DNA from: Gluconacetobacter aggeris
GTDB taxonomy: Bacteria; Pseudomonadota; Alphaproteobacteria; Acetobacterales; Acetobacteraceae
Length of the DNA: 52,079 nucleotides
Assembly: GCF_014174395.1 (NCBI RefSeq)
Contig: NZ_JABEQD010000018.1
Coordinates: 1 to 52,079, forward strand
Direction of reading: 5' to 3'
Shown here: positions 29,542 to 50,342 of the stretch, piece after piece
Position numbering within the stretch: the first letter of the stretch is position 1
Layout: each line of letters opens with the position of its first letter
Translations under genes and position numbers: made by a program
Notes under the pieces: generated by a model
What the model saw: the letters and a program-made list of their open reading frames with translations, nothing else
What the model was told of the DNA's origin: nothing
The model's database searches: none

Positions 29542-29664
29542 GGGTCGCTCCTTCCTTCAACGCGCCGACGCAGATTTAATCGTAATAGCTGACATAATCC
29601 ATCATCACACCAAACAGAAGCGTGGATCATCGCCGCCGATCCTGCTAGCCTCACGCCCGGCGCG

Positions 29665-29683
29665 TGTCCGGTCGTCGGACACA
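29665..29683. promoter_or_regulatory. Palindrome in cysK/rrf2 intergenic region
   Basis: GTGTCCG-N5-CGGACAC, perfect seven-base arms, 26 bases before the Rrf2-family start. It could be an operator (autoregulation) or an RNA hairpin in the leader. It does not resemble the AT-rich IscR or CymR boxes, so the binder is unknown. Confidence 0.4.
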
Positions 29684-29708
29684 CCATGGATTGCAGGAGA
29701 AATCGGGA

Positions 29709-30158
29709 ATGCTGCTTCGGCGTGACAGGGCCATGATCGCGGTGCTCATCATGCTCGACGTCGCGTTCCATGCCGGACGCACCGGAACCGTCAGCGCCGC
29801 CGACATCGCCGAGCGCGCCGGGCTGGCCCGACGGGGCATCGAGCCGCTGCTCCAGACATTGTCGCGTTCCAGCCTGCTGGAAAGCGTGCGCGGGCCGCGC
29901 GGCGGCTACCGGCTGGGCCGCCCGCGGCGCGACATCACCGTGGCCGACATCGTCGAGGTCGCGACGGCCGACGATTCGTCGTCCGATGACGGGCCGATGG
30001 GCCAGCTTTTCACCCGCGTCATCGATCCGTGCTGGCAGAAGCTGGACGAGACCGTGTCGGCCCAGTGCCGCAAGCTGACCCTGGACGATCTGGTCCACCG
30101 GGCGGAATCCAGCGGCATGCGCCGTCCACTGGCCGAGCCGATCAGCTTTTCGATCTGA
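29709..30158 (+). CDS. Rrf2 family transcriptional regulator
   Basis: A 149-residue winged-helix regulator. The N-terminal HTH (about 10-70) shows the family pattern SAADIAERAGLARRGIEPLLQTL followed by the wing GPRGGYRLGRPRRDITVADIVE. Only two cysteines lie in the C-terminal half (DPCW and AQCRK), not the three-Cys Fe-S cluster set of IscR, so a non-cluster type such as CymR is more likely. Divergent from cysK, which fits control of cysteine synthesis; in Bacillus the related CymR acts in complex with CysK. AGGAG precedes ATG 29709. Confidence 0.88.
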   Translation: MLLRRDRAMIAVLIMLDVAFHAGRTGTVSAADIAERAGLARRGIEPLLQTLSRSSLLESVRGPRGGYRLGRPRRDITVADIVEVATADDSSSDDGPMGQLFTRVIDPCWQKLDETVSAQCRKLTLDDLVHRAESSGMRRPLAEPISFSI

Positions 30159-34738: not shown

Positions 34739-35674
34739 ATGACCGACCGGATGGTCTTCTACAGCCAGATGGACAATCCCGAACCCTGGCGGGCCGCGCT
34801 GCATGCGGCCCTGCCGGATTTGGGGTTCGCACTGGCCGACTCGGTCACCGACACCGCCGGGATACGCTATGCGCTGGTCTGGAACCCGCCGCAGGGGTTC
34901 TTCGCCCGTTTTCCCGACCTGCGCATGATCGTCAGCCTGGGTGCCGGCGTCGATGCGCTGGTGGCGCGCGACGACCTGCCGCCCGGCGTGGCGATCACGC
35001 GGCTGCAGGACCCGATGATGTCGCGGATGATGGCCAGCTACGTCCTGTTCGCGACCCTGCGCCTGGCCCGCGACATTCCGGCCTTCGCGGCCGCGCAGCG
35101 CGAGGGACGGTGGCACTTCATCGAACCCCGCCCCCTCTCGCACACGCGTGTCGGCATCATGGGATTGGGCGAACTGGGCCTGTTCGCGGCACGGGAATGC
35201 GCGCGGCTGGGCTTTACGGTCAGCGGCTGGTCGCGCAGCCCGAAAGCCGAGCCCGGCATCACCTGCCATGCGGGAATGGACAGCCTCCCCGCCTTCCTCG
35301 GCGAATGCGATATCCTGGTCTGCATGCTGCCCAAGACGCCGCAGACCATCGGCCTGCTGAATGCCGAACGGCTGGCGATGCTGCCGCGGGGCGCGGGCTT
35401 CATCAATGTCGCGCGCGGCGCCATCGTCGATGAAGAGGCGCTGGTCGCCGCCCTGCGCTCCGGCCGGATCGGACAGGCCACGCTGGACGTCTTCAGCCAG
35501 GAGCCGCTGCCGCAAGACCATCCGCTGTGGCACCTGGACAATGTGCTGATCACGCCGCACGTCGCCTCGGTCGCCCTGCCGGACTCGGCGGCACCCCAGA
35601 TAGCCGAGAATATCCGCCGCCTGCGCACCGGCCTGCCCGCGCGCGATACGGTGGACGTCGCGCGCGGTTACTGA
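34739..35674 (+). CDS. ghrA: Glyoxylate/hydroxypyruvate reductase A
   Basis: A 311-residue D-2-hydroxyacid dehydrogenase of the GhrA type, reducing glyoxylate and hydroxypyruvate with NAD(P)H. The Rossmann loop GIMGLGELG, catalytic Arg in NVARGAIVDE, Glu in the following helix, and the catalytic His in LITPHVAS are visible; the early SLGAGVDAL segment is typical of the subfamily. GAGGAGAGAG precedes the ATG. It is the last gene before the TonB receptor region. Confidence 0.9.
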   Translation: MTDRMVFYSQMDNPEPWRAALHAALPDLGFALADSVTDTAGIRYALVWNPPQGFFARFPDLRMIVSLGAGVDALVARDDLPPGVAITRLQDPMMSRMMASYVLFATLRLARDIPAFAAAQREGRWHFIEPRPLSHTRVGIMGLGELGLFAARECARLGFTVSGWSRSPKAEPGITCHAGMDSLPAFLGECDILVCMLPKTPQTIGLLNAERLAMLPRGAGFINVARGAIVDEEALVAALRSGRIGQATLDVFSQEPLPQDHPLWHLDNVLITPHVASVALPDSAAPQIAENIRRLRTGLPARDTVDVARGY

Positions 35675-35801
35675 CAGGGCCGGAATGACGCAATCGGGCG
35701 GCTACAATACGCATGAATCCGCGCTTGGTGCGGGCGGCCTGTGGCTTCCACGGCACAGGTCGATCCGGCTTCCGAACAAAAAGCCCGCAGTTTTTCCAGA
35801 A

Positions 35802-35819
35802 AAATTCGTCCACGAATTT
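35802..35819 (+). terminator. Hairpin downstream of ghrA
   Basis: AAATTCG-TCCA-CGAATTT, seven perfect pairs with a four-base loop, flanked by complementary GAA/TTC. Only a short TTCTTC follows, so it is a weak terminator candidate for ghrA. The surrounding 35675-35890 stretch is AT-rich and non-coding. Confidence 0.35.
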
Positions 35820-35894
35820 CTTCTGACAATTTAATTGAATTTCCTGATTCTTAATACTCGTCCTCCCCTACGGTCTTCGCAATCGCGCAGCGTT

Positions 35895-35916
35895 CATGTT
35901 GCATAACGGCAACATG
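35895..35916. promoter_or_regulatory. Conserved palindrome upstream of TonB receptor 1
   Basis: CATGTTGC-N6-GCAACATG, perfect eight-base arms. Equivalent sites with the same six-base spacer lie upstream of receptors 2 (39817-39832) and 3 (46714-46737). It is about 300 bases before the start codon. A dimeric repressor or activator operator is the simplest reading. Confidence 0.6.
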
Positions 35917-35950
35917 ATGCAAGAAATCCGTAACAGACGGCACACGAGCG

Positions 35951-36003
35951 GTCGACACGACCGTTATGATCATGTGTAGTTTTTGTTAACGCGCTGTAAC
36001 AGG
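35951..36003 (+). promoter_or_regulatory. Second conserved leader block, TonB receptor 1
   Basis: GTCGAC at 35951, CATGTGT at 35971, then TTTTGTTAACGC and TGTAACAGG to 36003. The same order and spacing occur at 39870 and, less exactly, at 46770. TGTTA/TAACA and CATGTGT/ACACATG (the latter reaching 36016) form inverted repeats. Promoter or structured leader; not resolved. Confidence 0.5.
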
Positions 36004-36211
36004 CCAATGACACATGCCCAGGGAGCTCCACGGCACATCGCATTCACCGGACATCCGGAACGAGATGGGACGCGGTCGCCCGTTAAATCCTGTCGGAATC
36101 GCTCGGATTCCGCCGGATTTTCCGGTCGGAACGCCTGGCATCGCATACAGCGCACCATTCTGATCAAGACACTGGCTTACCAATCTTCACGTTAATATCT
36201 TTGGAGCAATC

Positions 36212-39200
36212 ATGGGCGATCGCCAGATCAAGCAGACGACCGCACGAACTCTTCGCCGAAAGAACGTTCTTCTTCTCGCCTTCACGGCCATGAGCGGGGT
36301 GATGTATTCCTCCGCTTACGCCCAGAGCGCGCAGACGGCGACACAGACCCCGCGCAAGCCCCATGTCCGGACGACCAAGGCCGCCAAGGCCATGAAGTCG
36401 ACCCTGGCAACGCCGGCCGTGGCCGCACCGGTCGTGGCCCCGGCCACCCGCAACGCTTCGGTCCTCTCGGCCGCGGCCGAAGCCCCCGCACCGGAGACCG
36501 CCTCGAAGGCCGAGACGATCATGGTGACGGGTTCGCTGTTCCGCGATCCGAACACGACCAGCGCATCACCGATCACGCGCATCACGGCGAAAGACCTGCA
36601 GCAGCGTGGTATCAAGACAGTAACCGACGCCCTGCAGCTTCTATCGTCGAATGGCGGCGGTAACCTGACCAATGCATGGTCGGCCGGTGGCGGCTTCGCG
36701 GCTGGCGCCTCGGCACCGTCGCTGCGCGGGCTCAGCACCGATTCGACCCTGGTTCTGATGGACGGGCAACGCCTGTCCTACTACCCGCTGGCCGACGACG
36801 GGGAGCGCAACTTCGTCGACACCAACTGGATGCCGCAATCCATCATGCAGTCGGTCGACGTGCTGCAGGATGGCGGGTCGGCCACCTACGGCGCCGACGC
36901 GGTCGCGGGCGTGGTCAACATGATCACGCGCAAGGAAATCCAGGGCTTCGAAGGCAATGCCGAAGGCGGCCTGACCCAGCGCGGCGATGCCGGCCACCAG
37001 CGGCTCTACGCCACCTATGGCCATGGCGACCTTGCGCGCGATGGCTACAATTTTTACGTCAACTCGGAATACCAGCAGGACGATCCGCTCTATTATCGTC
37101 AGCTGGGCTATCCTTACAATAACGGCGACCTGACCGGCATCGGCGGCACAAACGGCAACGACAATATCGTTTCCAACGGCACGATCGCCAACTTTGCGGC
37201 GACGCCGGGTGCAATCGTCCATCCGGTCGACGGATCCGGTAAGGCAACCGGCCCGTGGCAGCTTCTGAACCCGTCAGGCTGCAACAGCCTGGGAGGCATC
37301 GTTGCAACCGGAACGGTCACCGGCACGCCGGGCATCAGCCAGGCCTGCACGATGAACACGCAGAAATATGAACAGGTTGCCCCTGATCTGCGTCGTATCA
37401 GTGCCAGCGCGCATTTCACCGCGAACGTGACTGACCGCTCGCAACTGGTCGCGATGTTCAACTGGTCGCAGGCCCGTTCAACCGTTACCGGCACGCCATA
37501 CGGCACCTACGGCAGTTCGTCCTATTCCCAGGCCCGGCTGGCCACGGCGCAGAATACCTATCTGCCCATATACCTGCCTGACGGGTCGCTGAACCCGAAC
37601 AACCCGTTCGCGGCTCAAGGTGAGCACGCACAGGTGTCCGCTCGCTTCGGCGACCTGATCCCCACCACCACCGAAACCAGCTCGAACTTCCGCGGATCGG
37701 TTCGCTATTCCGGCTGGGCGCCGTCCAACTGGGGTTCGGACTGGAATTACGATGCCAATTTCGTCGGCATGAACACGCTGCTGAACCAGACAATCACCGG
37801 CGTTCCAACGATCAATGGCATCAACAATGCGATTCTCAACGGCACCTACAATTTCGTCGATCCGTCGCAGAACTCCCGCTCCGTCCTGAATTCGATCGCG
37901 CCGCGGAACGTGATCAATGCCCGCACGCAGGAATATTCAGGCGAACTGTCGGCCAGCAAGGGCCTTTTCCACCTGCCGGGTGGCATGGCCAAGCTGGCGA
38001 TCGGCGGCAATGTCCGATGGGAAGCACTGAACGCCCCGAACGCCAATCCGCTGGATCCGAACGATCCCGGCGCGCAATATACCAGCTATATCAATCCGGT
38101 GAATGCACGCGGCAGCCGCTGGGTCGAATCCGGCTTCTTCGAAGCTGATCTTCCGTTCGTAAAGATGCTGGATGCCACGGTGTCCGGCCGTTACGACAAT
38201 TATTCCGAAGGCTTCAGCCACTTCTCGCCGAAGGTCGGAGTGAATTTCAAACCGATCGACAAGCTGACATTGCGAGGCACCTTCTCGAAGGGCTTCCGCG
38301 TTCCCAGCTTCGCTGAAACCGGCGGATCGAACGTCGGGTACATCAATTATACCCCGACCAATGCCGCCTTCATCAGTCAGCATCTGAACGCTGACGGCTC
38401 GCCGGACAATTACGCCCAGACCTACCGGATTGGCCAGAACAGCGCGGGCAACCCGGATCTGCGGCCCGAAACCTCGACCAACTTCTCTGGTGGCCCGGTC
38501 TACCGTCCGACCCGATGGCTGACGCTGAGCGCCGATTACTATTATATCCGCAAGAATCACTATATCGCGCCGAACCCGATCGCGCTTTCGAGCGTGGCGG
38601 ACGATTGGCTGACCTCCGGAAATGCAAACCTGCCTTCGTCCGTAACGGTTACGCCGGATGTCGCCGATCCGCAGCACCCCGAGGGTCAGCGTCGTCCCGG
38701 CATCGTCAACCTGGGCTATGTCAACACCAACAAGCTGGTGACCGACGGTTTCGACCTGTCGATGGAAATCAACACCCAGTTGCCGGGCTTCCTGCATGAA
38801 GTGCATTGGTACAGCAAGGGCAGCGCCACGTTCGTCGACAAGATGAACCTGACGAATCCTGATGGATCGGTGTACCGCTTCGCCGGAACGCTCGGACCTT
38901 ACGGTGCGGTTTCGGCTTCCGGCACGCCGAAATGGCGCGCCAACTGGTCGAACACCTTCACCTGGAAGAAACTGGCCGTCACGCCGACCGTCTATTATAC
39001 CAGTGGCTACAAGACGACGGCCGAAGATCAGAGCGGCTCTGGAACCGCCAACAACTGCGCCGACGCTCAGGCCGGCAATAACTTTGTTCCGTCTCAGTGC
39101 AGGGTCAAAGGCTGGTGGGATGTCGACCTGACGCTCAACTACCAGTTCAGCCCGCGCTGGTCCGCCTATGCCAACGTCTACAATCTACTGGGCTTCCGGG

Positions 39201-39307
39201 CACCGTACGATTTCGGCACCTATGGCGGCTATCTCTACAACTCTTCATGGTCGCAGCAGGGCGTCGTCATGCGCTCGTTCCAGTTCGGCGTGAACGTCAA
39301 ACTCTGA
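36212..39307 (+). CDS. TonB-dependent receptor 1
   Basis: A 1031-residue outer-membrane receptor. A long signal peptide (MGDRQIKQTTARTLRRKN, hydrophobic core, cleavage after AYA, residue 37) is followed by a Pro/Ala/Lys-rich stretch to about 100, a TonB-box-like ETIMVTGS, the plug domain (about 105-240: SLRGLSTDSTLVLMDGQRLS, GSATYGADAVAGVVN) and a 22-strand-type barrel ending in RSFQFGVNVKL. No N-terminal signalling (STN) domain. TTGGAG precedes the ATG. First of three tandem paralogues; the plug, the C-terminus and start region are very alike, and the extracellular-loop regions differ. The ligand is unknown; peptides, siderophores or sugars are possible. Confidence 0.93.
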   Translation: MGDRQIKQTTARTLRRKNVLLLAFTAMSGVMYSSAYAQSAQTATQTPRKPHVRTTKAAKAMKSTLATPAVAAPVVAPATRNASVLSAAAEAPAPETASKAETIMVTGSLFRDPNTTSASPITRITAKDLQQRGIKTVTDALQLLSSNGGGNLTNAWSAGGGFAAGASAPSLRGLSTDSTLVLMDGQRLSYYPLADDGERNFVDTNWMPQSIMQSVDVLQDGGSATYGADAVAGVVNMITRKEIQGFEGNAEGGLTQRGDAGHQRLYATYGHGDLARDGYNFYVNSEYQQDDPLYYRQLGYPYNNGDLTGIGGTNGNDNIVSNGTIANFAATPGAIVHPVDGSGKATGPWQLLNPSGCNSLGGIVATGTVTGTPGISQACTMNTQKYEQVAPDLRRISASAHFTANVTDRSQLVAMFNWSQARSTVTGTPYGTYGSSSYSQARLATAQNTYLPIYLPDGSLNPNNPFAAQGEHAQVSARFGDLIPTTTETSSNFRGSVRYSGWAPSNWGSDWNYDANFVGMNTLLNQTITGVPTINGINNAILNGTYNFVDPSQNSRSVLNSIAPRNVINARTQEYSGELSASKGLFHLPGGMAKLAIGGNVRWEALNAPNANPLDPNDPGAQYTSYINPVNARGSRWVESGFFEADLPFVKMLDATVSGRYDNYSEGFSHFSPKVGVNFKPIDKLTLRGTFSKGFRVPSFAETGGSNVGYINYTPTNAAFISQHLNADGSPDNYAQTYRIGQNSAGNPDLRPETSTNFSGGPVYRPTRWLTLSADYYYIRKNHYIAPNPIALSSVADDWLTSGNANLPSSVTVTPDVADPQHPEGQRRPGIVNLGYVNTNKLVTDGFDLSMEINTQLPGFLHEVHWYSKGSATFVDKMNLTNPDGSVYRFAGTLGPYGAVSASGTPKWRANWSNTFTWKKLAVTPTVYYTSGYKTTAEDQSGSGTANNCADAQAGNNFVPSQCRVKGWWDVDLTLNYQFSPRWSAYANVYNLLGFRAPYDFGTYGGYLYNSSWSQQGVVMRSFQFGVNVKL

Positions 39308-39330
39308 CGAAACCCAGCGCAATAAGGGAG

Positions 39331-39360
39331 GGGGTGGTCCAAGGACCACCCCTTTTTTTT
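39331..39360 (+). terminator. Intrinsic terminator of TonB receptor 1
   Basis: Stem GGGGTGGTCC/GGACCACCCC (39331-39340 / 39343-39352) followed by eight T. The same stem sequence ends receptors 2 and 3. Confidence 0.9.
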
Positions 39361-39800
39361 ACATACCGACTTGCGCCCGAGGACGACCCTTGTCCGGTTC
39401 GCTTCCTGACCCGATGATCCGTTAACCATCCCGCGGTCATGACCTGCCTCTATCCGGCTTATTTTCCTGGCAGATCGGGCAAATAAACAATGACGGCCGG
39501 CCGACCCTCTTCCATGGTCTGCCGCCCCCACGCTTCAGCATGTATTTCGGACCAGCCTTCGCCGCTCGGTACTCCGCGCCAAATGTCTTCAGCCGGAAAA
39601 AGAGCACCACAGTGCGCACGAATCACGCCTCAGACTGTTGAGGGCGATCGATCTGTGCCGTTTACGGCACGTGCTCTCTTGCACGCGTAAAGACTGGGAA
39701 ACAGTATGATATCTATAAATTTCATTAAAAAGATTTCTTATATTTTAATAACTTTCCATTTCCAATATCTATCCCCTTTTTTCAATACCTTCCTCCGCGA
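39361..39800. other. Non-coding stretch between TonB receptors 1 and 2
   Basis: No convincing gene; short ORFs on both strands (39490-39690 plus, 39437-39619 minus) overlap each other and match nothing I know. Nested inverted repeats occur at 39601-39677: AGAGCAC/GTGCTCT enclosing GTGCCGT-TT-ACGGCAC (39655-39670). The last 100 bases are AT-rich, like the region before receptor 1. Confidence 0.4.
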
Positions 39801-39816
39801 CGGCACATATGTATCC

Positions 39817-39832
39817 GTTGCCTCCATGCAAC
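39817..39832. promoter_or_regulatory. Conserved palindrome upstream of TonB receptor 2
   Basis: GTTGC-N6-GCAAC with the right side extended to GCAACATAA; the left extension is degenerate. Counterpart of the perfect palindromes at 35895 and 46714. About 38 bases separate it from the GTCGAC block, as in the first leader. Confidence 0.5.
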
Positions 39833-39869
39833 ATAATGACAAAAATCTGCAATAATTCACACACGAATG

Positions 39870-39921
39870 GTCGACACTCCCACTCCGATCATGTGTAGTT
39901 TCGTTAACGCGCCGTAACAGG
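39870..39921 (+). promoter_or_regulatory. Second conserved leader block, TonB receptor 2
   Basis: GTCGAC at 39870, then GATCATGTGTAGTTTCGTTA and CGCGCCGTAACAGG, nearly identical to 35951-36003. CATGTGT/ACACATG flank the GTTA/TAAC pair. Downstream the two leaders stay similar to the start codon, including CCGGAACGrGATGrGACGCG. Confidence 0.5.
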
Positions 39922-40125
39922 CAATGGACACATGTTCGGAGAGTTCCACGATCTCACACTCATCGAAAATCCGGAACGGGATGAGACGCGGCCAATCGTT
40001 GCAGCATCGGAATCAGGATGATTCAGAGGTGTTCTCCGATGGGACGACCCGGCATGACCTTTGGCGCCGAATGCTGATCAAGACACTCGTTTACCAATCT
40101 TCACATCAATATTCTGGAGAAATTC

Positions 40126-43100
40126 ATGGGTGATCGCCAGATAAAGCCGACAACCGCACGAACTCTGCGCCGAAAGAATATCGTTCTGTTCGCCTTCACG
40201 GCCATGAGCGGGATGATGTACTCTTCCGCTTTCGCGCAGAGCGCGGAGACGGCGACGCAGACACAATCCCCGCGCAAGCCCCATGTCAGGACGATCAAGG
40301 CTGCCAAGACCGTGAAAACGGCCCCGGCCGCGGCGGGGCCGGTCGCGATGGCACCGGTCGCGGCCACGCTCCCTCCGAGGGCCCCGAACAATGCGACAGC
40401 CATAGCGAACGCGGCGACAATGGCCAGCAGTCCGGCTCCGGAGCAGGAGGCCGAAAGTGTCACGGTGACCGGCACGCTGTTCCACGATCCGAACGCGACC
40501 AGTTCCTCCGAAATCACGCATATCACGCGCAAGGACATGCAGCAGCGCGGCCTGAAAACCGCCAATGACATCCTGCAACAATTGTCGGCGAACGGTGCGG
40601 GCAATCTTACCAGCCAGTGGGCGGCGGGTGGCGGCTTTGCCCCCGGTGGATCGGCGCCATCGCTCCGTGGCCTCAGCACCGACTCGACCCTCGTCCTCAT
40701 CGACGGGCAGAGAAACTCCTACTATCCCCTCGCTGACGACGGCGAGCGGGATTTCGTCGATACGACATGGATTCCGCAATCCATCATGGAGGGTGTCGAC
40801 GTTCTGCAGGACGGCGGGTCCGCGACCTATGGCGCCGATGCTGTGGCCGGCGTCGTGAACTTCACGACCCGCAAGAACATCCAGGGATTCGAGGCCAATG
40901 CCGAAGGCGGCCTGTCGCAACGTGGGGATACGGGCCATCAGCGGCTATACGCAACATATGGCCACGGTGACCTGAATCGCGACGGATATAATTTCTACAT
41001 CAATTCGGAATACCAACAGGACGACGCTTTATACTATCGCCAGCTTCAATCCCCCTATAACAACGGCGACCTCACCAGCCTCGGTGGATCGAACGGAAAC
41101 ACGAACACCCTGCTTCCCGGTACGAACCAGTTCAATACCAATTACACCGGCTCCACCTCCGCCGCGATTGTCCGGCCCTTCGTCAATGGGGCAGGCGTCG
41201 GCGGATACAGCCTGCTCAACCCGCAAGCCGGATGCGGCGGCCTGACGCCGGTTTCGGGGTACAATTTCACGGGAAATGACACGTCGCTGACATCGGCGTG
41301 CTCGCAAAATTCCAAGCAATATGCAATGGTGCAGCCGGACCAGCGCCGGGTCAGCGCGACCGCGCACTTCACGGCGAATGTGACGGATAATTCGCAACTG
41401 GTCGCGATGTTCAACTGGTCGCAAGCCCGGACCATAACGACGTCGGCGCCTTCCCCATACGGGACGGCGACGCAGGCGGAACTGGTGTCGAGCAGCCCGG
41501 TCGTCCTGCCATGGCAGCTTTCCAACGGCCAACTGAATCCGAACGATCCGTATGCGGCCCAGCATCAGGACGCCCAGATCGCAGGATTGTTCAATCAGGT
41601 CCCGGTCACGACCGATACGTCGAACAATTTTCGCGGATCGGTACGCTATACCGGCTGGGCGCGTTCGAACTGGGGATCGGACTGGAACTACGATGCTGAC
41701 TTTGTCGGCATGAATACGCTGCTGAACCAGGTTCAGACAGGCCAGCCTTATCTCAGTCACCTTGAAAACGCCATTGCCGACGGGTCCTATAACTTCGTCA
41801 ACCCGTCCCAGAATTCCAGAAGCGCCACGAACTACGTCTTGCCGGTCAACACCATCAATGCTCGCTCGCAGGAGTATTCCGGCCAGGCAACCTTGAGCAA
41901 AGGCCTGTTCAAATTGCCCGGCGGAATGGTGAAAGTCGCGATCGGCGGAAATATCCGTTACGAAGCCGTAAACGATCCGAATGCCAATCCGCTCGATGTG
42001 AACAACCCCGCCAATCAGTGGGCCATCTATAATCCGGTGGCCCAGGTCGGGCATCGCTGGGTCGAATCCGGATTCTACGAAGTCAATATTCCGATCGTCA
42101 AAATGCTGAATATCGACACATCCGGTCGGTATGACAATTATAACGAGCAATCGGAAAATTTCAGCCACTTCTCGCCGAAAGTCGGCTTTCAGTTCAAGCC
42201 CATCAAGCAGATCACACTGCGGGGAACCTTCAACCGCGGCTTCCGTGTGCCCAGCTTTGCCGAAACGGGCGGACAGACCGAAGGCTTCGTGCCGGTACAG
42301 TGGGACCAGACAAACCCCGCCATCACCGCCTGGCAGAACAGCCACGGCAATGATGGATATGTTCAGTCGGGGAATTACATCGGGCAGTTGAACGTTGGCA
42401 ATCCGCAGCTGAAGCCGGAAACCTCGACCAGCTATACCATCGGTCCGGTCTTCAATCCGACGAACTGGCTGACCATTTCGGCCGAATACTACTACATCAA
42501 GAAAAACCATTTCATTACGAGTGGTATCCTGAACCCGAACGCCTACCTCAATCAGTGGGTTGAGAACGGTGGTTCGAACGTGGGGCTGCCTGCCGGAATT
42601 ACGGTCGTTCCGGGCCCGAAAGACGGCAATTACCCGAACGCGCTGGTGGCCCCCGCTTATGTCGCGGGCGAATACATCAACGCCAAAAGCATGATGACGG
42701 ATGGTGTCGACCTGTCGATCAGCGCGCATGCCCATCTTCCGGGTGCGCTGCATGACGTCACATGGTACAGCAATGGCCAAGCGACCTACGTCAGGCGCTT
42801 CAACCAGGTCAACCCTGATGGATCGATTTACCAGTTCGCCGGGACGCTCGGTCCGTATTCCGCCGTTTCCGCTTCGGGTACGCCGCGCTGGCGCGCGAAC
42901 TGGTCGAACACGTTCGCCTGGAAAAAACTGGCCGTTACCCCCACCGTCTATTACACGAGCGGTTACAAGACAGTGGCGGATGATTCCGGCGCGACGGCGC
43001 CTGCCGCCGATGGACGTTACAGCCATAGCTGCGCGAATTCGGTCGGGATGTTGCAGTTTAACGGCCCGGCCTATCCGACCCAGTGCCGCGTCAAGAGTTT

Positions 43101-43293
43101 CTGGGATGTTGATCTGACCGTCAATTATCAGTTCAACAAGAAATGGTCGATATACGCCAACGTCTATAACCTTCTCGGTTTCCGCGCGCCGTATGATTAC
43201 GCGACGTATGGCGGATACCTCTACAATTCTTCATGGTCGCAGAAGGGTGTGATCATGCGCTCCTTCCAGTTCGGCGTGAACGTCACGCTCTGA
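40126..43293 (+). CDS. TonB-dependent receptor 2
   Basis: A 1055-residue paralogue of receptor 1 with the same signal peptide type (MGDRQIKPTTARTLRRKN, cleavage after AFA, residue 37), a longer Pro/Ala-rich spacer, TonB-box-like ESVTVTGT (110-117), plug domain with APSLRGLSTDSTLVLIDGQR and a barrel ending RSFQFGVNVTL. TCTGGAG precedes the ATG. The barrel differs from receptor 1 mainly in loop regions (for example around residues 330-400 and 690-760), which fits a changed ligand. An efficient terminator follows, then the M1 aminopeptidase gene. Confidence 0.93.
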   Translation: MGDRQIKPTTARTLRRKNIVLFAFTAMSGMMYSSAFAQSAETATQTQSPRKPHVRTIKAAKTVKTAPAAAGPVAMAPVAATLPPRAPNNATAIANAATMASSPAPEQEAESVTVTGTLFHDPNATSSSEITHITRKDMQQRGLKTANDILQQLSANGAGNLTSQWAAGGGFAPGGSAPSLRGLSTDSTLVLIDGQRNSYYPLADDGERDFVDTTWIPQSIMEGVDVLQDGGSATYGADAVAGVVNFTTRKNIQGFEANAEGGLSQRGDTGHQRLYATYGHGDLNRDGYNFYINSEYQQDDALYYRQLQSPYNNGDLTSLGGSNGNTNTLLPGTNQFNTNYTGSTSAAIVRPFVNGAGVGGYSLLNPQAGCGGLTPVSGYNFTGNDTSLTSACSQNSKQYAMVQPDQRRVSATAHFTANVTDNSQLVAMFNWSQARTITTSAPSPYGTATQAELVSSSPVVLPWQLSNGQLNPNDPYAAQHQDAQIAGLFNQVPVTTDTSNNFRGSVRYTGWARSNWGSDWNYDADFVGMNTLLNQVQTGQPYLSHLENAIADGSYNFVNPSQNSRSATNYVLPVNTINARSQEYSGQATLSKGLFKLPGGMVKVAIGGNIRYEAVNDPNANPLDVNNPANQWAIYNPVAQVGHRWVESGFYEVNIPIVKMLNIDTSGRYDNYNEQSENFSHFSPKVGFQFKPIKQITLRGTFNRGFRVPSFAETGGQTEGFVPVQWDQTNPAITAWQNSHGNDGYVQSGNYIGQLNVGNPQLKPETSTSYTIGPVFNPTNWLTISAEYYYIKKNHFITSGILNPNAYLNQWVENGGSNVGLPAGITVVPGPKDGNYPNALVAPAYVAGEYINAKSMMTDGVDLSISAHAHLPGALHDVTWYSNGQATYVRRFNQVNPDGSIYQFAGTLGPYSAVSASGTPRWRANWSNTFAWKKLAVTPTVYYTSGYKTVADDSGATAPAADGRYSHSCANSVGMLQFNGPAYPTQCRVKSFWDVDLTVNYQFNKKWSIYANVYNLLGFRAPYDYATYGGYLYNSSWSQKGVIMRSFQFGVNVTL

Positions 43294-43318
43294 CGAAACC
43301 CGATACGGGAAGAAAAGG

Positions 43319-43345
43319 GGGTGGTCTTCGGACCGCCCTTTTTTT
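43319..43345 (+). terminator. Intrinsic terminator of TonB receptor 2
   Basis: Stem GGGTGGTC/GACCGCCC (43319-43326 / 43331-43338, one G-T pair) with a stable TTCG tetraloop, followed by seven T. Confidence 0.9.
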
Positions 43346-43474
43346 GTCGGCGGAATGACGGCCGCTTCGCGGCGGTCTTCTACGCTGCCCGCCCGATTTG
43401 CGTTGTGCACCCAACAGGGGAACAATGGCGGGTAGATGATCAGGCTTGCTGGTCCACTACACCGGAGTTTCCGT

Positions 43475-46123
43475 ATGAATTTCAAACCCGCCATCGCCAC
43501 GCTTTTATTGGCGAGCACGGCCCTGCTGTCAGGACCTGCCCTGGCCGAATCTCCCTTCGATTTCGCCCACGCACCCGGCCAGTTGCCGAAAGATGTGGTG
43601 CCCGCCGCCTATCGGATCGACATCGTCACCGACCTGAAGCGCCTGACCCTGACCGGGCATGAAGACATCGACGTCAACGTCACGGCCCCCACCGCCAGCA
43701 TCACGCTGAACCAGGCGGGCCTGACGCTGACAGCGGCCACGCTCGACGGCACGGCGGCCAAGATCACGCAGGACGACAAGGCCCAGACGGCGACGCTGAC
43801 CCTGCCGCAGCCCATGGCCACCGGGGCGCACAAGCTGGCGATCACCTATCGCGGCCCCATTCCGGCCACGCCGAACGGCATCTATTACGATGATTACCGC
43901 ACCTCCAACGGCAAGCAGCACCGCATGCTGGTAACGCAGTTCGAGGTCGCGGACGCCCGCCGCATGTTCCCCGGCTGGGACGAACCCGCCTTCAAGGCGA
44001 CGTTCCAGTTGACGGCGACCCTGCCGGCCAGCTTCACCGCCGTCAGCAACATGCCGATCGAATCGTCCACGCCGGCCGGCGCGAACGCCAAGCGGGTGGT
44101 CTTCGGCACCTCGCCGCGCATGTCCACATACCTGCTGGCCCTGGTGGCCGGTGACATGAAGGCCGTCAGCGGCAAGGGCGGCGACACGCCGATCAATGTC
44201 TATGCCCCGACCGGCGAGCAGGAAAAGGGCCGCTACGCGCTGACCGCCGCATCGCAGATCCTGCCCTATTACAACGCGTATTTCGGCGTCGCCTATCCGC
44301 TGCCCAAGATGGACCTGATCGCCATTCCCGGAAATTACGAGGCCGGGGCGATGGAAAACTGGGGCGCCATCACCTTCATCGACGACGACCTGCTGTTCGA
44401 CCCCAAGACCAGCGCGCCGACGACCCAGGAAGCCGTCTATATCGTCGTGGCGCATGAAATGGCCCACCAATGGTCGGGCGACCTGGTGACGATGGGCTGG
44501 TGGGACAATATCTGGCTCAATGAAGGGTTCGCCACCTGGATGGAGACCAAGGCCACCGACCATTTCAACCCGACCTGGCAGATGTGGCCGCGCCAGCATT
44601 ACGAACGCGAACAGGCGATGGCGCAGGATGCCCATCCGACCACGCACCCCATCCAGCAGGTGATCCACGACGTCAGCGAGGCCGATACCGCCTTCGACCG
44701 GATCAGCTACCAGAAGGGCGAGCAGGTCATCCGGATGGTCGAGGACTGGCTGGGTCCCGATATCTTCCGTGACGGGATGCGCGCCTATATGAAGGCCCAC
44801 GCCTACGGCAACACCACCAGCGCCGATCTGTGGGTCGCGCTGTCGCAGGTGTCGCACCAGGATGTGGCGACCGTCGCCCGCAGCTTCACCGAGCAGCCGG
44901 GCATCCCGCTGGTCACCGTCGGCCGACGCTGCGAAGCCGGCAAGACGACCCTGACGCTGACCGAAGGCCGCTTCGCCATCGGTGACGCCCATCCGCTGCC
45001 CGCACGCTGGAACATCCCCGTCACCATCGGCGGCCCCGGCGTCACCGCGCAGCGCGTCATCCTGACGCCCGACCAGCCGGCGCACCTGACCTTCACGGGC
45101 TGCGACCAGGCGCTGAAGGCCAATCCGGGCGAAAACGGCTATTATCGTACGGCCTACGATGCGTCGTCGCTCACCGCCCTCGGAAAAGCATTCGGCCAGT
45201 TGAGCGCCGTCGACCGCGCCAACCTGCTGGGCGACCAGTATGCGCTGTTCCAGGCCGGCCTGGCACCGCTTTCGACCTGGCTGGACCTGGTTGCCACCCT
45301 GCCGGCCACGCACGAGGACAATATCGCCGTCTGGCAGGACACGATCGGGCGCCTGAAGGATCTGGACGCGATGGAGCGCGGCAGCCCGTCCCGCCTCGCC
45401 TTCCATGCCTTTGCCCGCGCCCTGCTGGGGCCGCAACTGGCACGCCTGGGCTGGACGCCGCGCGCGGATGAATCCTTCCTCGACACGCTGCTGCGTCCGC
45501 AGGTGATCACGGCCCTGGGGCAGTTCGACGACCCGGCGGTCATCAGCGGCGCGCAGGCGCGCTTTGCCGCCTATGTGAAGAACCCCGGCAGCCTGCCGGC
45601 CAGCCTGGTCGATCCGGTCACTTCGGTCGCCGGCCAGCATGCCGATGCCGCGACCTACGCGACGCTGGTGAAGATGCTGCACGCGGCAACCAGCACCGAA
45701 GACAAGCTGCGCTTCTTCAGCGCGCTGGCGGCGGCGCATGATCCCGCCTTGATCCGCCAGACCGTGCAGATCGCCTATAGCGGCGTCATCCCCAACGGCC
45801 GCGTCGCCCGCTCGCTCGCCCGGGTGGCCGCCACCAGCGACAATCCCGATCTGGTCTGGTCGCTGGTGCAGGACCCGCAGACGCAGAAGCAGATCCGCGC
45901 ACGTCTGGCTCCCTGGTCGCAATCCGCGCTGCTGCCGGCCATCGCGTCGCACTCGGTCAACCCGGACGTGGCGAAGGCACTGGCCGCCGACCCGTCGGCT
46001 ACAGCCTCGATCGGCGCCAAGATCGAGGCCCGTAAGGCCACGGATCTGATCGCCGCCAATGCCGCCATCGCGGCGCGGGCCCAGGCCGACCTCACCCCCT
46101 GGCTGGCCGCCCTGTCACACTGA
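43475..46123 (+). CDS. M1 family aminopeptidase (PepN/ERAP type), exported
   Basis: An 882-residue zinc aminopeptidase that removes N-terminal residues from peptides. Signal peptide MNFKPAIATLLLASTALLSG (cleavage after ALA, residue 24) places it in the periplasm, unlike cytosolic PepN. Substrate-anchor GAMEN (291-295), zinc motif HEMAH-x18-E (HEMAH 327-331, Glu350 in LNEGF) and a catalytic Tyr in RISYQKG are intact; the C-terminal half is the helical ERAP1-like domain. GGAG precedes ATG 43475. Lying between two TonB receptors, it may trim peptides brought into the periplasm; this link is inferred from position. Confidence 0.93.
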   Translation: MNFKPAIATLLLASTALLSGPALAESPFDFAHAPGQLPKDVVPAAYRIDIVTDLKRLTLTGHEDIDVNVTAPTASITLNQAGLTLTAATLDGTAAKITQDDKAQTATLTLPQPMATGAHKLAITYRGPIPATPNGIYYDDYRTSNGKQHRMLVTQFEVADARRMFPGWDEPAFKATFQLTATLPASFTAVSNMPIESSTPAGANAKRVVFGTSPRMSTYLLALVAGDMKAVSGKGGDTPINVYAPTGEQEKGRYALTAASQILPYYNAYFGVAYPLPKMDLIAIPGNYEAGAMENWGAITFIDDDLLFDPKTSAPTTQEAVYIVVAHEMAHQWSGDLVTMGWWDNIWLNEGFATWMETKATDHFNPTWQMWPRQHYEREQAMAQDAHPTTHPIQQVIHDVSEADTAFDRISYQKGEQVIRMVEDWLGPDIFRDGMRAYMKAHAYGNTTSADLWVALSQVSHQDVATVARSFTEQPGIPLVTVGRRCEAGKTTLTLTEGRFAIGDAHPLPARWNIPVTIGGPGVTAQRVILTPDQPAHLTFTGCDQALKANPGENGYYRTAYDASSLTALGKAFGQLSAVDRANLLGDQYALFQAGLAPLSTWLDLVATLPATHEDNIAVWQDTIGRLKDLDAMERGSPSRLAFHAFARALLGPQLARLGWTPRADESFLDTLLRPQVITALGQFDDPAVISGAQARFAAYVKNPGSLPASLVDPVTSVAGQHADAATYATLVKMLHAATSTEDKLRFFSALAAAHDPALIRQTVQIAYSGVIPNGRVARSLARVAATSDNPDLVWSLVQDPQTQKQIRARLAPWSQSALLPAIASHSVNPDVAKALAADPSATASIGAKIEARKATDLIAANAAIAARAQADLTPWLAALSH

Positions 46124-46152
46124 CCACCATCGAAGCGCCGGAACACACAACG

Positions 46153-46185
46153 GATCGTTTCAGGCCGGCGGGGCCTGAAACGATC
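46153..46185 (+). terminator. Strong hairpin after the M1 aminopeptidase
   Basis: GATCGTTTCAGGCC (46153-46166) pairs perfectly over 14 bases with 46172-46185, loop GGCGG, followed by TTCTCC. It lies 29 bases after the stop. Confidence 0.75.
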
Positions 46186-46189
46186 TTCT

Positions 46190-46700
46190 CCGGCGATACG
46201 ATTTCCGGGCACGATCAACCGTAGCCCTCTCTGCCGCCGGCAGCCCTGTTCGCCCGCATGGATTCGCGAACATTGCCCCGGCGCCTCTTCTGAATCCTCC
46301 TTCAAGGCCCGTTGGGCAATAGGCTCTGAGGCGCGAGAGCGGCCTTATGGGCCGGCACGGCCGAGCACGGAAATCATGCGGCGAATCGCCGCCAGCGATA
46401 TTTGCCAACAGCCCCGGCAAACCCGCCTGCGGCCGGAAAACATGGGAACGGCCCCGTGATTCGCCTCCCCACATCCATCCTCGCCCAAGACCCGGCCTTC
46501 ATCCACCCTCCACCATCATTGGGAAAATGCAGGTGCCATTGCTTCAACCCGACGCCAGCAGCCTGGACGATGTGAGAGCGGAATAAAAAGAAAAGAATAG
46601 CGCAAATATATTCGCAAAAAGATCTCCGGAATGTCCATTCTGGAAATTTTATCGAATGCCATCTCGCCTCCGTTCTATTGTTCAATCAAAACAATCCCTT
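46190..46700. other. Non-coding stretch before TonB receptor 3 leader
   Basis: GC-rich at first, turning AT-rich from about 46580. The only long frame (46160-46474, minus) runs through the terminator hairpin and matches no family. An inverted repeat TCCgGAATG/CATTCtGGA lies near 46625-46645. I see nothing else. Confidence 0.4.
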
Positions 46701-46713
46701 CGGGCAGAAGCAT

Positions 46714-46737
46714 TTATGTTGCACCAATGCAACATAA
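46714..46737. promoter_or_regulatory. Conserved palindrome upstream of TonB receptor 3
   Basis: TTATGTTGC-N6-GCAACATAA, perfect nine-base arms, the best copy of the three. It lies 483 bases before the start codon, further away than in the other two leaders. Confidence 0.65.
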
Positions 46738-46769
46738 CGAACGAAATTCGTTACGAACAGAATGGAACG

Positions 46770-46820
46770 GTCGACAGGGTCGTCGTCTTTATGCGTATTT
46801 TGTTACCGCTATGTAATAGG
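46770..46820 (+). promoter_or_regulatory. Second conserved leader block, TonB receptor 3
   Basis: GTCGAC at 46770 and TTTTGTTACCGC then ATGTAATAGG to 46820, matching the order and spacing of 35951 and 39870 with more differences. GTTAC/GTAAT takes the place of GTTA/TAAC. Confidence 0.45.
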
Positions 46821-47219
46821 AAGTTAAGCATGGTTTCTTGGCATCATGAGGATGGTGATCGTAACGCGCGGCACTTCTATGCCGGGTGGATCAACATGCG
46901 CTTTTGTCAGGACCTTACCATATGCACACGCGGGGGCTTGGCGCAGCCGGCCCGATGTCCGCGCCGTCCCTGACGGCCGCAGAACGTTACAAAAACCACA
47001 TGACAAATATGGTTCGGATGCCCATGCGGTCATGGGTATTTTGTAATTCTTCAGCAAGCAAGATCATTCAAAAATCAGAATGATAAGCCAGGGACACAGT
47101 ATGCCGGACCTGGAATACCTCCGGTGCTCTTCTTATTTCATGTCAATAAAATTCGTTCCGGAATCAATCAAATCGGAACAGCTTTCCCCTCAAGCATAAG
47201 AACGATCCAGGAGAAATTC

Positions 47220-50200
47220 ATGGGCGATCGCCGAGCCAAACAGACGACATCCAGAACTTTTCGACATAGAAACATCCTTCTTCTGGCCTTCACGGCCATG
47301 AGCGGAATGGTGTGTTCCCCTGTCTTCGCCCAAGGCACGATGACGGCGACGCAGACGCCCCGCAAGCATATCAAGCCGACCAAGGCGACTAAGAAGACGG
47401 TCGCACCGACCACGGCAACGGCCCCGGTGACCACCAGGCCGGCCGTCATGGCGCCGAACGCCGCGATCGTGGCGCAGACCTCGACTGCCCCCGTCGTGCC
47501 GACCTCGGCGGAAGCCGAAAATGTCGTCGTGACGGGTTCGCTGATTCGCGACCCGAATTTCCGCAGCGCCTCCCCCATGACGCATCTGACGTCCAGGGAC
47601 CTGCGGCAGCGCGGAATCACGACGGCTTCCCAGGCGTTGCAGCAGTTGGCTTCCAACGGTTCGGGCAACCTGCCGGCCAACTTCTCGGCCAACGGTGCCT
47701 TCGCGGCCGGCGCCACCGCACCGTCCTTGCGCGGCCTGACGACGGACTCGACCCTCGTCCTCATGGACGGGCAGCGCCTGTCCTACTATCCGCTTTCCGA
47801 TGACGGCGAACGCAACTTCGTCGACAGCAACTGGATTCCGATGTCGATCATGGAGACGATCGACGTGCAGAAGGACAGCGCCTCCGCCACCTACGGCGCC
47901 GACGCGGTCGCGGGCGTGATCAACTTCATCACCCGCAAGCAGATCAAGGGATTCGAAGCCAACGCCGAAGGCGGGCTGAGCGGTCAGGGCGATTCCGGCC
48001 ATCAGCGCCTCTACGCCACCTACGGCCATGGCGACCTGGATCGCGACGGCTACAATTTCTACGTCAATGCCGAGTACCAGAACGATGACATGCTGTACAA
48101 TTCGCAGCGTGGCTATCCCTACAACACGGGCGACCTGACGGGTATCGGCGGCTACAACGCCAATCCAAACGCCGTCCAGGCCGACGGCTCGGTCACGGGC
48201 ATCGGCGCGACCACGACCGCGCTCGTCCGGCCGGTCTCGGTCGGTTCCAGCGGTGCGCTGACGCCGCTTGGCGGCCTTCAGCCTCTTGGCGGCTGCGGCG
48301 ACCTGACCGCGCACAACGTGCCTGTGGGCGCGTTCCCCGGCAGCACCGGTAAATTCGCGAACAGCATCTGCGAGCAGAACACCGTCGGCAATTACAAGGT
48401 GATCACCCCGGCAGACCGCCGCGTCAGCACGACGGCGCATTTCACCGTCCGCCCGTGGCAGCGGGCCGAGCTGACGGGCATGTTCACCTATTCGCAGAAT
48501 CTGAACTACAATACCGCCACCCCGATCAGCATCCGCTCGCAAAGCCGCTCCGGCGATATCAGCTTCGCCAATATCACGCTGCCGGCGCTGCTGGCCAACG
48601 GGCAGTTGAACCCCAACAACCCGTATGCCGCGCAGGGGCAGGCCGCCCAGATCTATTATCTGTTCGGCGACATGCGCCCCACGTCTACCCAGTTCAACCA
48701 GGCCTATCGCGGCTCGGTCCATCTTTCGGGCTGGGAACCGTCGAACTGGGGCTCGGACTGGAAATATAACGCGTCGTTCGTCGGCATGACCGACGACCTG
48801 GCCTATGTCCGGACCGGCTACCCGATCTTCAACCGCGTCCAGCAGGCAATCAACGACGGCAGCTACAATTTCATCAATCCGTCGATGAACTCGGCCGCCA
48901 TCCGCAACTGGATCGCGCCGCGCTCGACGCAGCACTCGGATTCCTCGGAATATTCGGGCGAACTGACTTTGCAGAAAGGCCTGTTCAAACTGCCGGGCGG
49001 CATGGTCAATCTCGTCGTCGGCGGCAATATCCGCTATGAATCGCTGAACAATCCCAGCGCCAACCCCGACGATCCGTTGAATCCCAGCGCCCAGTATATG
49101 GGCATCAACGGCTTCTACGCGAAGGGCAGCCGGTGGGTGGAATCCGGTTTCTTCGAGACCTATATTCCGTTCGTCAAATATTTCAGCGCCGACGTGTCCG
49201 GTCGCTATGACAATTACTCAGTCGGCTACAACCGCTTCTCGCCCAAGGTCGAAGCCCTGATCAAGCCGATCAAGGAATTCACGCTGCGCGGCACCTTCTC
49301 GAAGGGCTTCCGCGTGCCGAGCTTCGCCGAAACCAACAGCCAGACGGTCGGCTACGTCACGGACAATCCGTCCAGCCACTCCTATACGTCCGCCTTCCTC
49401 GCCCAGCATCAGAATGCCGCTGGTACGGGGCCCGACGCCTATGCGCAATCGTACAGCCTGGCGCTGAACACGGTCGGCAACCCCAATGTGAAGCCTGAAC
49501 TGTCGACCAGCTTCACCGGCGGTGCCGTCATCCAGCCGACACGCTGGATGAACCTGAGCGTCGATTACTATTACATCAAGAAGGACAACTATATTACGAC
49601 GGCCAACCAGGCGACGGCGCTGGAAGCCTATTACACCGGTTCGCCCATGCCTTCCGGCATTTCGGTCATCCCGGACGTCGCCGATCCGGATCATCCCAAC
49701 GCGCAACCCCGCGCTGGTATCGTCAATCTCGGCTATATCAACGGCGCCTCGCTCACGACCGATGGCCTCGACCTCGCGCTTGATGCCAATATCCCCCTGC
49801 CTGGCAAGCTGTCGAAGATCAAGTGGTACAGCAAGGGCGAAGCCACCTATATCTTCCGCTACAACATCACCTATCCGGGCGTAGGCACCGAGCGTTTCGC
49901 GGGAACCCTGGGACCGGCCAACACAACTTCGGCGTCCGGAACGCCCCGCTGGCGCGCCAATTGGGCCAATACCTTCACTTATGACAAGCTGTCGCTGACC
50001 ACGACCGTTTATTATACCAGCGGCTACAAGCTGACCGCGGAAGACTATAATGGTCCCGGCACCCGCAACGACTGCTCGACAGCCGCCACCGGCTTCGCTG
50101 GCGAAACAACGCTGGATGGCAACCCCATCCGCTGCAACGCCCCCAGTTTCTGGGATGTGGACCTGACGCTGGCCTACCGCATCAGCAATCGCTTCTCGGT

Positions 50201-50342
50201 CTATGCCAACATGTACAATGTCGGCAACTGGAAACCGGCCCTCGATCTCGGTACCTATGGCGGCTATCTGTACAACCCGTCCTGGGCGGCAGCCGGCATG
50301 CTTGGCCGCGCCTTCCGCTTCGGCGTCAACGTGACGCTCTGA
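47220..50342 (+). CDS. TonB-dependent receptor 3
   Basis: A 1040-residue receptor, more diverged than receptors 1 and 2. Signal peptide MGDRRAKQTTSRTFRHRN with cleavage after VFA (residue 37), Pro/Thr/Lys-rich spacer, TonB-box-like ENVVVTGS, plug domain with APSLRGLTTDSTLVLMDGQR and YGADAVAGVINFITRK, and a barrel ending RAFRFGVNVTL. CAGGAG precedes ATG 47220; the frame is open to 47124 upstream, but that ATG has no ribosome site. Its leader is about 170-200 bases longer than the other two. It is followed by its own terminator. Confidence 0.93.
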   Translation: MGDRRAKQTTSRTFRHRNILLLAFTAMSGMVCSPVFAQGTMTATQTPRKHIKPTKATKKTVAPTTATAPVTTRPAVMAPNAAIVAQTSTAPVVPTSAEAENVVVTGSLIRDPNFRSASPMTHLTSRDLRQRGITTASQALQQLASNGSGNLPANFSANGAFAAGATAPSLRGLTTDSTLVLMDGQRLSYYPLSDDGERNFVDSNWIPMSIMETIDVQKDSASATYGADAVAGVINFITRKQIKGFEANAEGGLSGQGDSGHQRLYATYGHGDLDRDGYNFYVNAEYQNDDMLYNSQRGYPYNTGDLTGIGGYNANPNAVQADGSVTGIGATTTALVRPVSVGSSGALTPLGGLQPLGGCGDLTAHNVPVGAFPGSTGKFANSICEQNTVGNYKVITPADRRVSTTAHFTVRPWQRAELTGMFTYSQNLNYNTATPISIRSQSRSGDISFANITLPALLANGQLNPNNPYAAQGQAAQIYYLFGDMRPTSTQFNQAYRGSVHLSGWEPSNWGSDWKYNASFVGMTDDLAYVRTGYPIFNRVQQAINDGSYNFINPSMNSAAIRNWIAPRSTQHSDSSEYSGELTLQKGLFKLPGGMVNLVVGGNIRYESLNNPSANPDDPLNPSAQYMGINGFYAKGSRWVESGFFETYIPFVKYFSADVSGRYDNYSVGYNRFSPKVEALIKPIKEFTLRGTFSKGFRVPSFAETNSQTVGYVTDNPSSHSYTSAFLAQHQNAAGTGPDAYAQSYSLALNTVGNPNVKPELSTSFTGGAVIQPTRWMNLSVDYYYIKKDNYITTANQATALEAYYTGSPMPSGISVIPDVADPDHPNAQPRAGIVNLGYINGASLTTDGLDLALDANIPLPGKLSKIKWYSKGEATYIFRYNITYPGVGTERFAGTLGPANTTSASGTPRWRANWANTFTYDKLSLTTTVYYTSGYKLTAEDYNGPGTRNDCSTAATGFAGETTLDGNPIRCNAPSFWDVDLTLAYRISNRFSVYANMYNVGNWKPALDLGTYGGYLYNPSWAAAGMLGRAFRFGVNVTL

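Follow-up and report, generated by a model that had tools for sequence, protein, structure and literature searches.

Three genes for TonB-dependent receptors on a contig of Gluconacetobacter aggeris (NZ_JABEQD010000018.1) are each preceded by a palindrome with a common GTTGC-N6-GCAAC core, and we consider it likely that this palindrome is the DNA-binding site of a dimeric regulator, probably an activator, dedicated to a small family of such receptors. The palindrome is kept in several related species at a fixed distance from the presumed promoter and thus looks like the landing site of a regulator. The contig was analyzed in full (52,079 nucleotides; the window) and is a complete 52-kb contig of a 4.32-Mb genome from a Gluconacetobacter very close to G. 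tumulicola, with 99% protein identity to that species in the region of receptor 1. A preliminary description of the window had reported three palindromes with arms of 8, 5 and 9 bp around a spacer of six bases, and the sequences at the positions in Table 1 confirm them. It had also placed the motif before "all three" TonB receptor genes; this holds within the window, but the 4.3-Mb genome of this acetic acid bacterium has a large set of 69 TonB plug-domain matches, so the palindrome marks a small subfamily (3/69).

Conservation of the Palindrome in Gluconacetobacter

The leader of the gene at 36212 is 72% identical to that of the gene at 40126 over 306 bp. Because the leaders are paralogous, the three sites are not independent and their co-occurrence alone proves little; the weight of the argument rests on comparison between species. 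A protein search of 14 genomes of the genus recovered 17 receptors sharing at least 55% identity with receptor 1, and GTTGY-N6-GCAAC is kept before 13 of them; seven of the 14 genomes bear the putative operator. The comparison of orthologous leaders proposed in the preliminary description was therefore favorable for these 13, in which the spacer varies freely, and unfavorable for the remainder, described below. Because the captured leaders of gene 0 in G. asukensis, G. dulcium, and G. liquefaciens (asuk0, dulc0, and liq0) were found through a search for the palindrome or through weak similarity at the N terminus, they do not testify independently to its retention and were left out of this count. 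They are included among the 14 leaders used for conservation figures, which were drawn from 16 by dropping two G. tumulicola leaders as near copies of those of this genome. A set of 14 distinct sites was obtained separately from 16 by merging identical 20-mers (own1 with one G. tumulicola site, and dulc0 with liq0).

Across the 14 leaders, the majority base averages 96.4% at the 14 arm positions, compared with 48.8% at the six spacer positions and 46.3% at 23 upstream positions. The arms of palindrome 1 are conserved across species, and all 14 distinct sites contain GTTG and GCAACA unchanged. None of the seven base pairs shows a two-sided change, and pairing is lost at the two outermost positions in 5 and 2 of the 14 sites; this absence of compensatory change, together with the breaking of the outer pairs, points to a DNA site read by a protein and not to an RNA stem. 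The figures support the earlier proposal of an operator under selection for a regulator, with the correction that the sites have the motif in common through shared descent of the entire leader.

Promoter Setting and Leader

The preliminary description had noted GTCGAC about 37–38 bases downstream of each palindrome. The block is present in all three leaders, starting at 35951, 39870, and 46770, and the measured distances after the 5-6-5 core are 37, 37, and 36 bases. It belongs to a well-conserved arrangement, TCGACA-N17-TGTART (CGTATT at receptor 3), and is probably part of the promoter, as its −35 element, rather than a second operator. Transcription would then start near 35987, 39906, and 46806, and the palindromes would be centered at about −81.5, −81.5, and −80.5, respectively. 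A center near −81 is usual for an activator, provided that the promoter is correctly placed. A start-site study of Gluconobacter oxydans describes a lax promoter for that organism, ttGnnn with, for the most abundant transcripts, Tatnnn (PMC5756330); the G of TCGACA and the first T of TGTAGT agree with this pattern.

In the mechanism that we propose, a dimer would recognize ATGTTGC-N6-GCAACAT, whose half-sites are separated by about one turn of the helix. At all three promoters it would be bound near −81 and on the same side of the helix (GTCGAC follows the core after 36 or 37 bp), in contact with RNA polymerase placed immediately downstream at TCGACA-N17-TGTART.

An Rfam search of positions 35600–47200 returned no family at threshold, and the sole match up to E = 1 was a subthreshold microRNA model on the other strand. 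A structured 5′ untranslated region was considered and set aside: the covariation term of its RNAalifold fold was near zero (0.07), although 8 of 48 pairs hold at least one two-sided change. A terminator-like hairpin lies at 47016–47041 within the long leader of receptor 3, ~180 bp before the start codon, and is a possible attenuator.

Distribution of the Motif

The exact GTTGC-N6-GCAAC core occurs nine times in the whole genome and its reversed-pattern control three times. Three of the nine cores are in the window, five are covered by open frames of at least 150 codons, and one lies outside such frames; the latter, ~160 bp upstream of an OmpA-family frame, lacks the promoter spacing and was not accepted as a regulon member. 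The six exact cores outside the window, in ~4.27 Mb, correspond to ~0.07 expected per 52 kb. Allowing one mismatch raises the count in the window from three to four, which was matched by 19 of 100 shuffles, and the 7-6-7 form with up to three mismatches gives four places, matched by 14 of 100 shuffles; the counts of these loose forms in the window are not significant. The extended motif TGTTGC-N6-GCAACATRAYG at one mismatch or fewer is found in this genome only before the three receptors. The genome-wide clustering anticipated in the preliminary description was thereby borne out for the extended motif, the 5-6-5 core alone also arising by chance in coding DNA. With two to three mismatches, the extended motif has many other places in the genome, more than its reversed control. 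Among the 14 genomes of the genus, 14 places match TGTTGC-N6-GCAACA, of which 13 precede receptors of the cluster and one (genome G012) falls inside open frames, and the looser TGTTG-N8-CAACA has 46, with 14 before these receptors and 11 for the reversed control.

Three other palindromes were considered and set aside as regulon members. The sequence TGTTGYAKATMTRCAACA, recurrent in several Gluconacetobacter species, lies between apparently convergent frames in two loci (L085:1501-1518, L076:1501-1518) and is perhaps a terminator or another site. TGTTGTGTATGCACAACA (L078:1501-1518, genome G003) stands directly before a frame that appears XRE-like by eye and is perhaps the operator of that XRE-type regulator's own gene. 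The partial palindrome ATGATGCAAATTTGCAACAT (G000:C1:426245-426272, L036), ~170 bp upstream of another TonB receptor, is possibly the box of a different regulator.

Other Genera and Points Against an Operator

Named relatives were drawn from one scan of 36 loci and a family search that found them in 19 of 200 genomes at E 1e-50. Each locus was scored for the left half, GCAAC, a gap of 36–37 bp, and the −35/−10 pair taken together, to a maximum of 17. The set comprised 52 loci outside the six operator-bearing Gluconacetobacter loci, of which eight were judged to be places retrieved twice, and L133 belongs to G. diazotrophicus. A score of 13/17 is reached by Acetobacter senegalensis, A. tropicalis, and Novacetimonas cocois, accounting for 4 of the 52 loci with the N. 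cocois place retrieved twice. Dinucleotide shuffles give an expectation of 0.015 loci scoring 12 or more, and none of 200 rounds reached the observed number, which favors the operator. In N. cocois (L120), the palindrome CCCCACATTGTGTTG...CAACACAATGTGGGG has arms of at least 15 bp and no T run, and lies ~210 bp before the start of the match; it may be a terminator or an operator, and its distance from a promoter-like pair is the one typical of the operator. The composite GTTGY-N6-GCAACA-N35-38-TYGAC has 17 places in 11 of 299 genomes of the family, compared with three for the reversed control. Ten are leaders of receptors of the cluster in four Gluconacetobacter genomes, and five are single matches in other genera; the other two are one place shared by G003 and G004, which lies upstream of a porin-like frame encoded on the strand opposite to the match, and were not accepted as part of the regulon. 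Ungapped motif scans outside Gluconacetobacter gave mostly chance-level matches and a few at P ≤0.02 (L097, L098, L101, L107, L108, L109, and L112). In L108 and L109, from two genomes of another genus (g54), a near-perfect ATGTTGC-N6-ACAACA precedes relatives of receptor 1 by ~157 bp, counted to the start of the match; these sites are much nearer the gene than usual and not at the usual promoter spacing.

Several observations weigh against an operator of a dedicated activator. Four of the 17 genus leaders lack the full palindrome: only a degraded version remains in G. diazotrophicus (G003) and G004, and none was found in the leaders of G012 and G013. The constraint is not confined to the palindrome, as the majority base averages 73.7% at 32 downstream positions in the 14 leaders. 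For receptors 1 and 3, a strict sigma-70 consensus scan of the leader reported no promoter, and the proposed −10 lacks the A at position 2 that such a scan demands. Outside the genus, eight Asaia and eight Gluconobacter loci were scanned and lack the full palindrome, as do most other loci, and the N. cocois palindrome could be the terminator of an upstream gene. The cross-genus shuffle figure is somewhat flattering because the score was fixed after the Acetobacter spacing had been seen. Finally, no candidate regulator was found, the search for CRP/FNR-type proteins giving only an FNR-like protein among the six best HTH_Crp_2 matches.

Separate Histories of Leader and Receptor Body

Gene 0 of G. 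asukensis (L121:1884-4838) and receptor 1 of the window (36212–39307) both directly follow a ghrA-like dehydrogenase gene; their leaders are 90% identical and their receptor bodies 29%. Gene 0 of G. dulcium and of G. liquefaciens, compared with receptor 1 of G. takamatsuzukensis, gives leader identities of 80 and 82% and body identities of 29 and 28%, so that the same leader stands before an unrelated receptor body in three genes. For receptor 3 of the window and that of G. takamatsuzukensis, the body is 95% identical and the leader 80%. In G. asukensis the signal peptide travels with the leader, as it mostly does in G. liquefaciens; for G. dulcium this is true only of approximately the first 22 residues. 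G. asukensis has another copy of the leader, in decayed form (TGTTACACACCAGAAACATTACG, then GTCGACT), at L048:~850-960, 357 bp upstream of the intact one.

It is possible, and we put it forward tentatively, that operator, promoter, 5′ leader, and the beginning of the signal peptide are exchanged together as an expression cassette, which brings unrelated receptors under one regulator; G. asukensis, where the unrelated body occupies the place of receptor 1, would be the strongest example. Recombination inside the leader and signal-peptide region would swap the cassette, and a strain could change its receptor without leaving the regulon. Spread of the operator with the promoter as a cassette would make the sites look alike, so the freely varying spacer is the more telling feature. 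The cassette behavior is the more surprising part of these findings; the operator is a new site of a familiar kind.

Alternative Explanations

A repressor operator is an unlikely alternative, in which the protein would bind upstream and act by looping or together with a second inverted repeat, TGTTA-N8-TAACA, that overlaps the presumed start site and reads TGTTAACGCGCTGTAACA at receptor 1. TonB receptors are often under repressors, which favors this explanation, but a repressor acting alone from −81 would be unusual and, between species, the repeat at the start site is more variable (CATTAACGTGCCGCAACA, TGATAACGCGCCTGCAACA) than the palindrome upstream of it. More doubtful still is a promoter for an extracytoplasmic function (ECF) sigma factor, with the right half GCAACA as the −35 element, CGTAACA 15 bases on as the −10, and the palindrome incidental. 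ECF promoters combine an AAC motif at −35 with a CGT −10 element after 15–16 bases, have no need of an inverted left arm, and often drive TonB receptors. The invariance of GCAACA in the 14 distinct sites and a YGTAACA-like block 21 bp on would suit such a promoter, and the spacing is near right; against it, the left half GTTG is equally invariant, and the supposed CGT begins with C in 7 of 14 leaders (with T in six and A in one). A domain search at E 0.001 gave no STN domain for any of the three receptors.

That the palindromes are leftovers of recent leader duplication and recombination, with no function of their own, is very improbable. The leaders are plainly homologous and have been exchanged between receptors, yet the arms hardly change while the spacer and upstream flank are nearly free, and members of other genera keep the spacing. 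Least credible of all is a longer leader transcript in which the palindrome folds into an RNA hairpin: pairing of the arms is possible in RNA, but the pairs show the breaks and the lack of two-sided change described above, and the palindrome would lie upstream of the promoter.

Comparison With Known Systems and Candidate Regulators

Class I sites of CRP/FNR-type activators are centered near −61, −71, −82, or −92, and the CRP site is TGTGA-N6-TCACA. The palindromes resemble such sites as inverted repeats of ~22 bp with a six-base spacer, centered at about −81, and with the TTG/CAA core of FNR-type boxes. The TG...CA core, spacer, and class I position are thus all found here, the position depending on the presumed promoter; the arms, GTTGC, differ. 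The genome has 10 HTH_Crp_2 matches, five over the cut-off, and domain scans covered the six best (the four weakest have E values of 4e-4 to 9e-4). Only the first of these six also has a cNMP_binding domain, and it is FNR-like, with an N-terminal cysteine cluster and an ETVSR helix; the others are two proteins of Lrp/AsnC type, one of MocR type, a DtxR-type fusion, and a 208-residue protein with the helix-turn-helix alone. An FNR-like protein is expected to read TTGAT-N4-ATCAA. A CRP/FNR regulator, attractive by spacing and position, was accordingly not adopted, the FNR-like protein being the only one of the six best matches with a sensor domain. The Rrf2-family gene at 29664–30158 was also rejected; no 7-6-7 site lies nearby within three mismatches, and it was taken for a housekeeping neighbor.

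LacI operators have a constant central CG, and the spacers of the 14 distinct sites share none, so the site rule of this family does not fit. The likeness lies in inverted repeats before uptake and utilization genes (PMC4052901); in the present leaders, the spacer varies freely and the repeat is located far upstream. The Fur box of Gluconacetobacter diazotrophicus is likewise a palindrome before TonB receptor genes, but is a 19-bp 9-1-9 repeat (PMC9368920). The sites here are 7-6-7 and were not accepted as Fur boxes. Zur boxes hold ATGTTA/TAACAT with half-sites approximately three bases apart, unlike the inner GC bases and six-base spacer found here. Regulation by Zur in Caulobacter does provide a case of alphaproteobacterial TonB receptors under a metal regulator (PMC4176598). 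The G. oxydans study reports a cobalamin riboswitch before a TonB receptor gene, a similarly long leader in the same family (PMC5756330), unlike the present leaders in that no Rfam family reached threshold in them and that the palindrome would lie upstream of the promoter. Within the open-access literature searched, on TonB receptors of Acetobacteraceae and on shared leaders, the text consulted described no operator like this one, only Fur boxes and one riboswitch for TonB receptors of this family, and no paper on the motif itself was found there under several spellings.

Receptors and Neighboring Genes

Peptidases stand beside the receptors, of family M1 in the window and of families S10 and M28 in G. 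asukensis. These neighbors weakly suggest peptide or amino-acid supply as the signal of the regulator, and the gene neighborhood hints that the receptors carry peptides. The plug of receptor 1 resembles those of siderophore, colicin I, and B12 receptors in the structure database, at a distance from which the substrate is not deducible. A terminator-like run after receptor 2 suggests that the M1 aminopeptidase gene has its own promoter.

Table 1. Positions of the palindromes, putative promoters, and genes in the window
Feature	Position	Strand	Description
Palindrome (putative operator) 1	35895–35916	+	CATGTTGC-ATAACG-GCAACATG; 8-bp arms
Second conserved block, adjoining operator 1	35916–35935	+	Consensus about AATGCAAGAAATCYGTAACA
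Putative promoter, receptor 1	35952–35980	+	TCGACA-N17-TGTAGT
Putative 5′ untranslated region, receptor 1	35987–36211	+	~225 nt, GGAG ribosome site
TonB-dependent receptor 1	36212–39307	+	1031 aa, plug and barrel
Palindrome (putative operator) 2, core	39817–39832	+	GTTGC-CTCCAT-GCAAC; 5-bp arms
Putative operator 2, extended	39815–39834	+	CCGTTGC-N6-GCAACAT; right half intact, left half shorter
Counterpart of second block, receptor 2	39835–39854		
Putative promoter, receptor 2	39871–39899	+	TCGACA-N17-TGTAGT
TonB-dependent receptor 2	40126–43293	+	1055 aa
M1-family aminopeptidase	43436–46123	+	Lies between receptors 2 and 3; start resembles a signal peptide (by eye)
Palindrome (putative operator) 3	46714–46737	+	TTATGTTGC-ACCAAT-GCAACATAA; 9-bp arms
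Counterpart of second block, receptor 3	46736–46755		
Putative promoter, receptor 3	46771–46799	+	TCGACA-N17-CGTATT
TonB-dependent receptor 3	47220–50342	+	Start taken at MGDRR; in-frame GTG at 47124

A short site at a fixed promoter spacing provides a direct bait for the regulator of these genes. That leader and body have separate histories suggests a way in which receptors might be swapped without losing their control.

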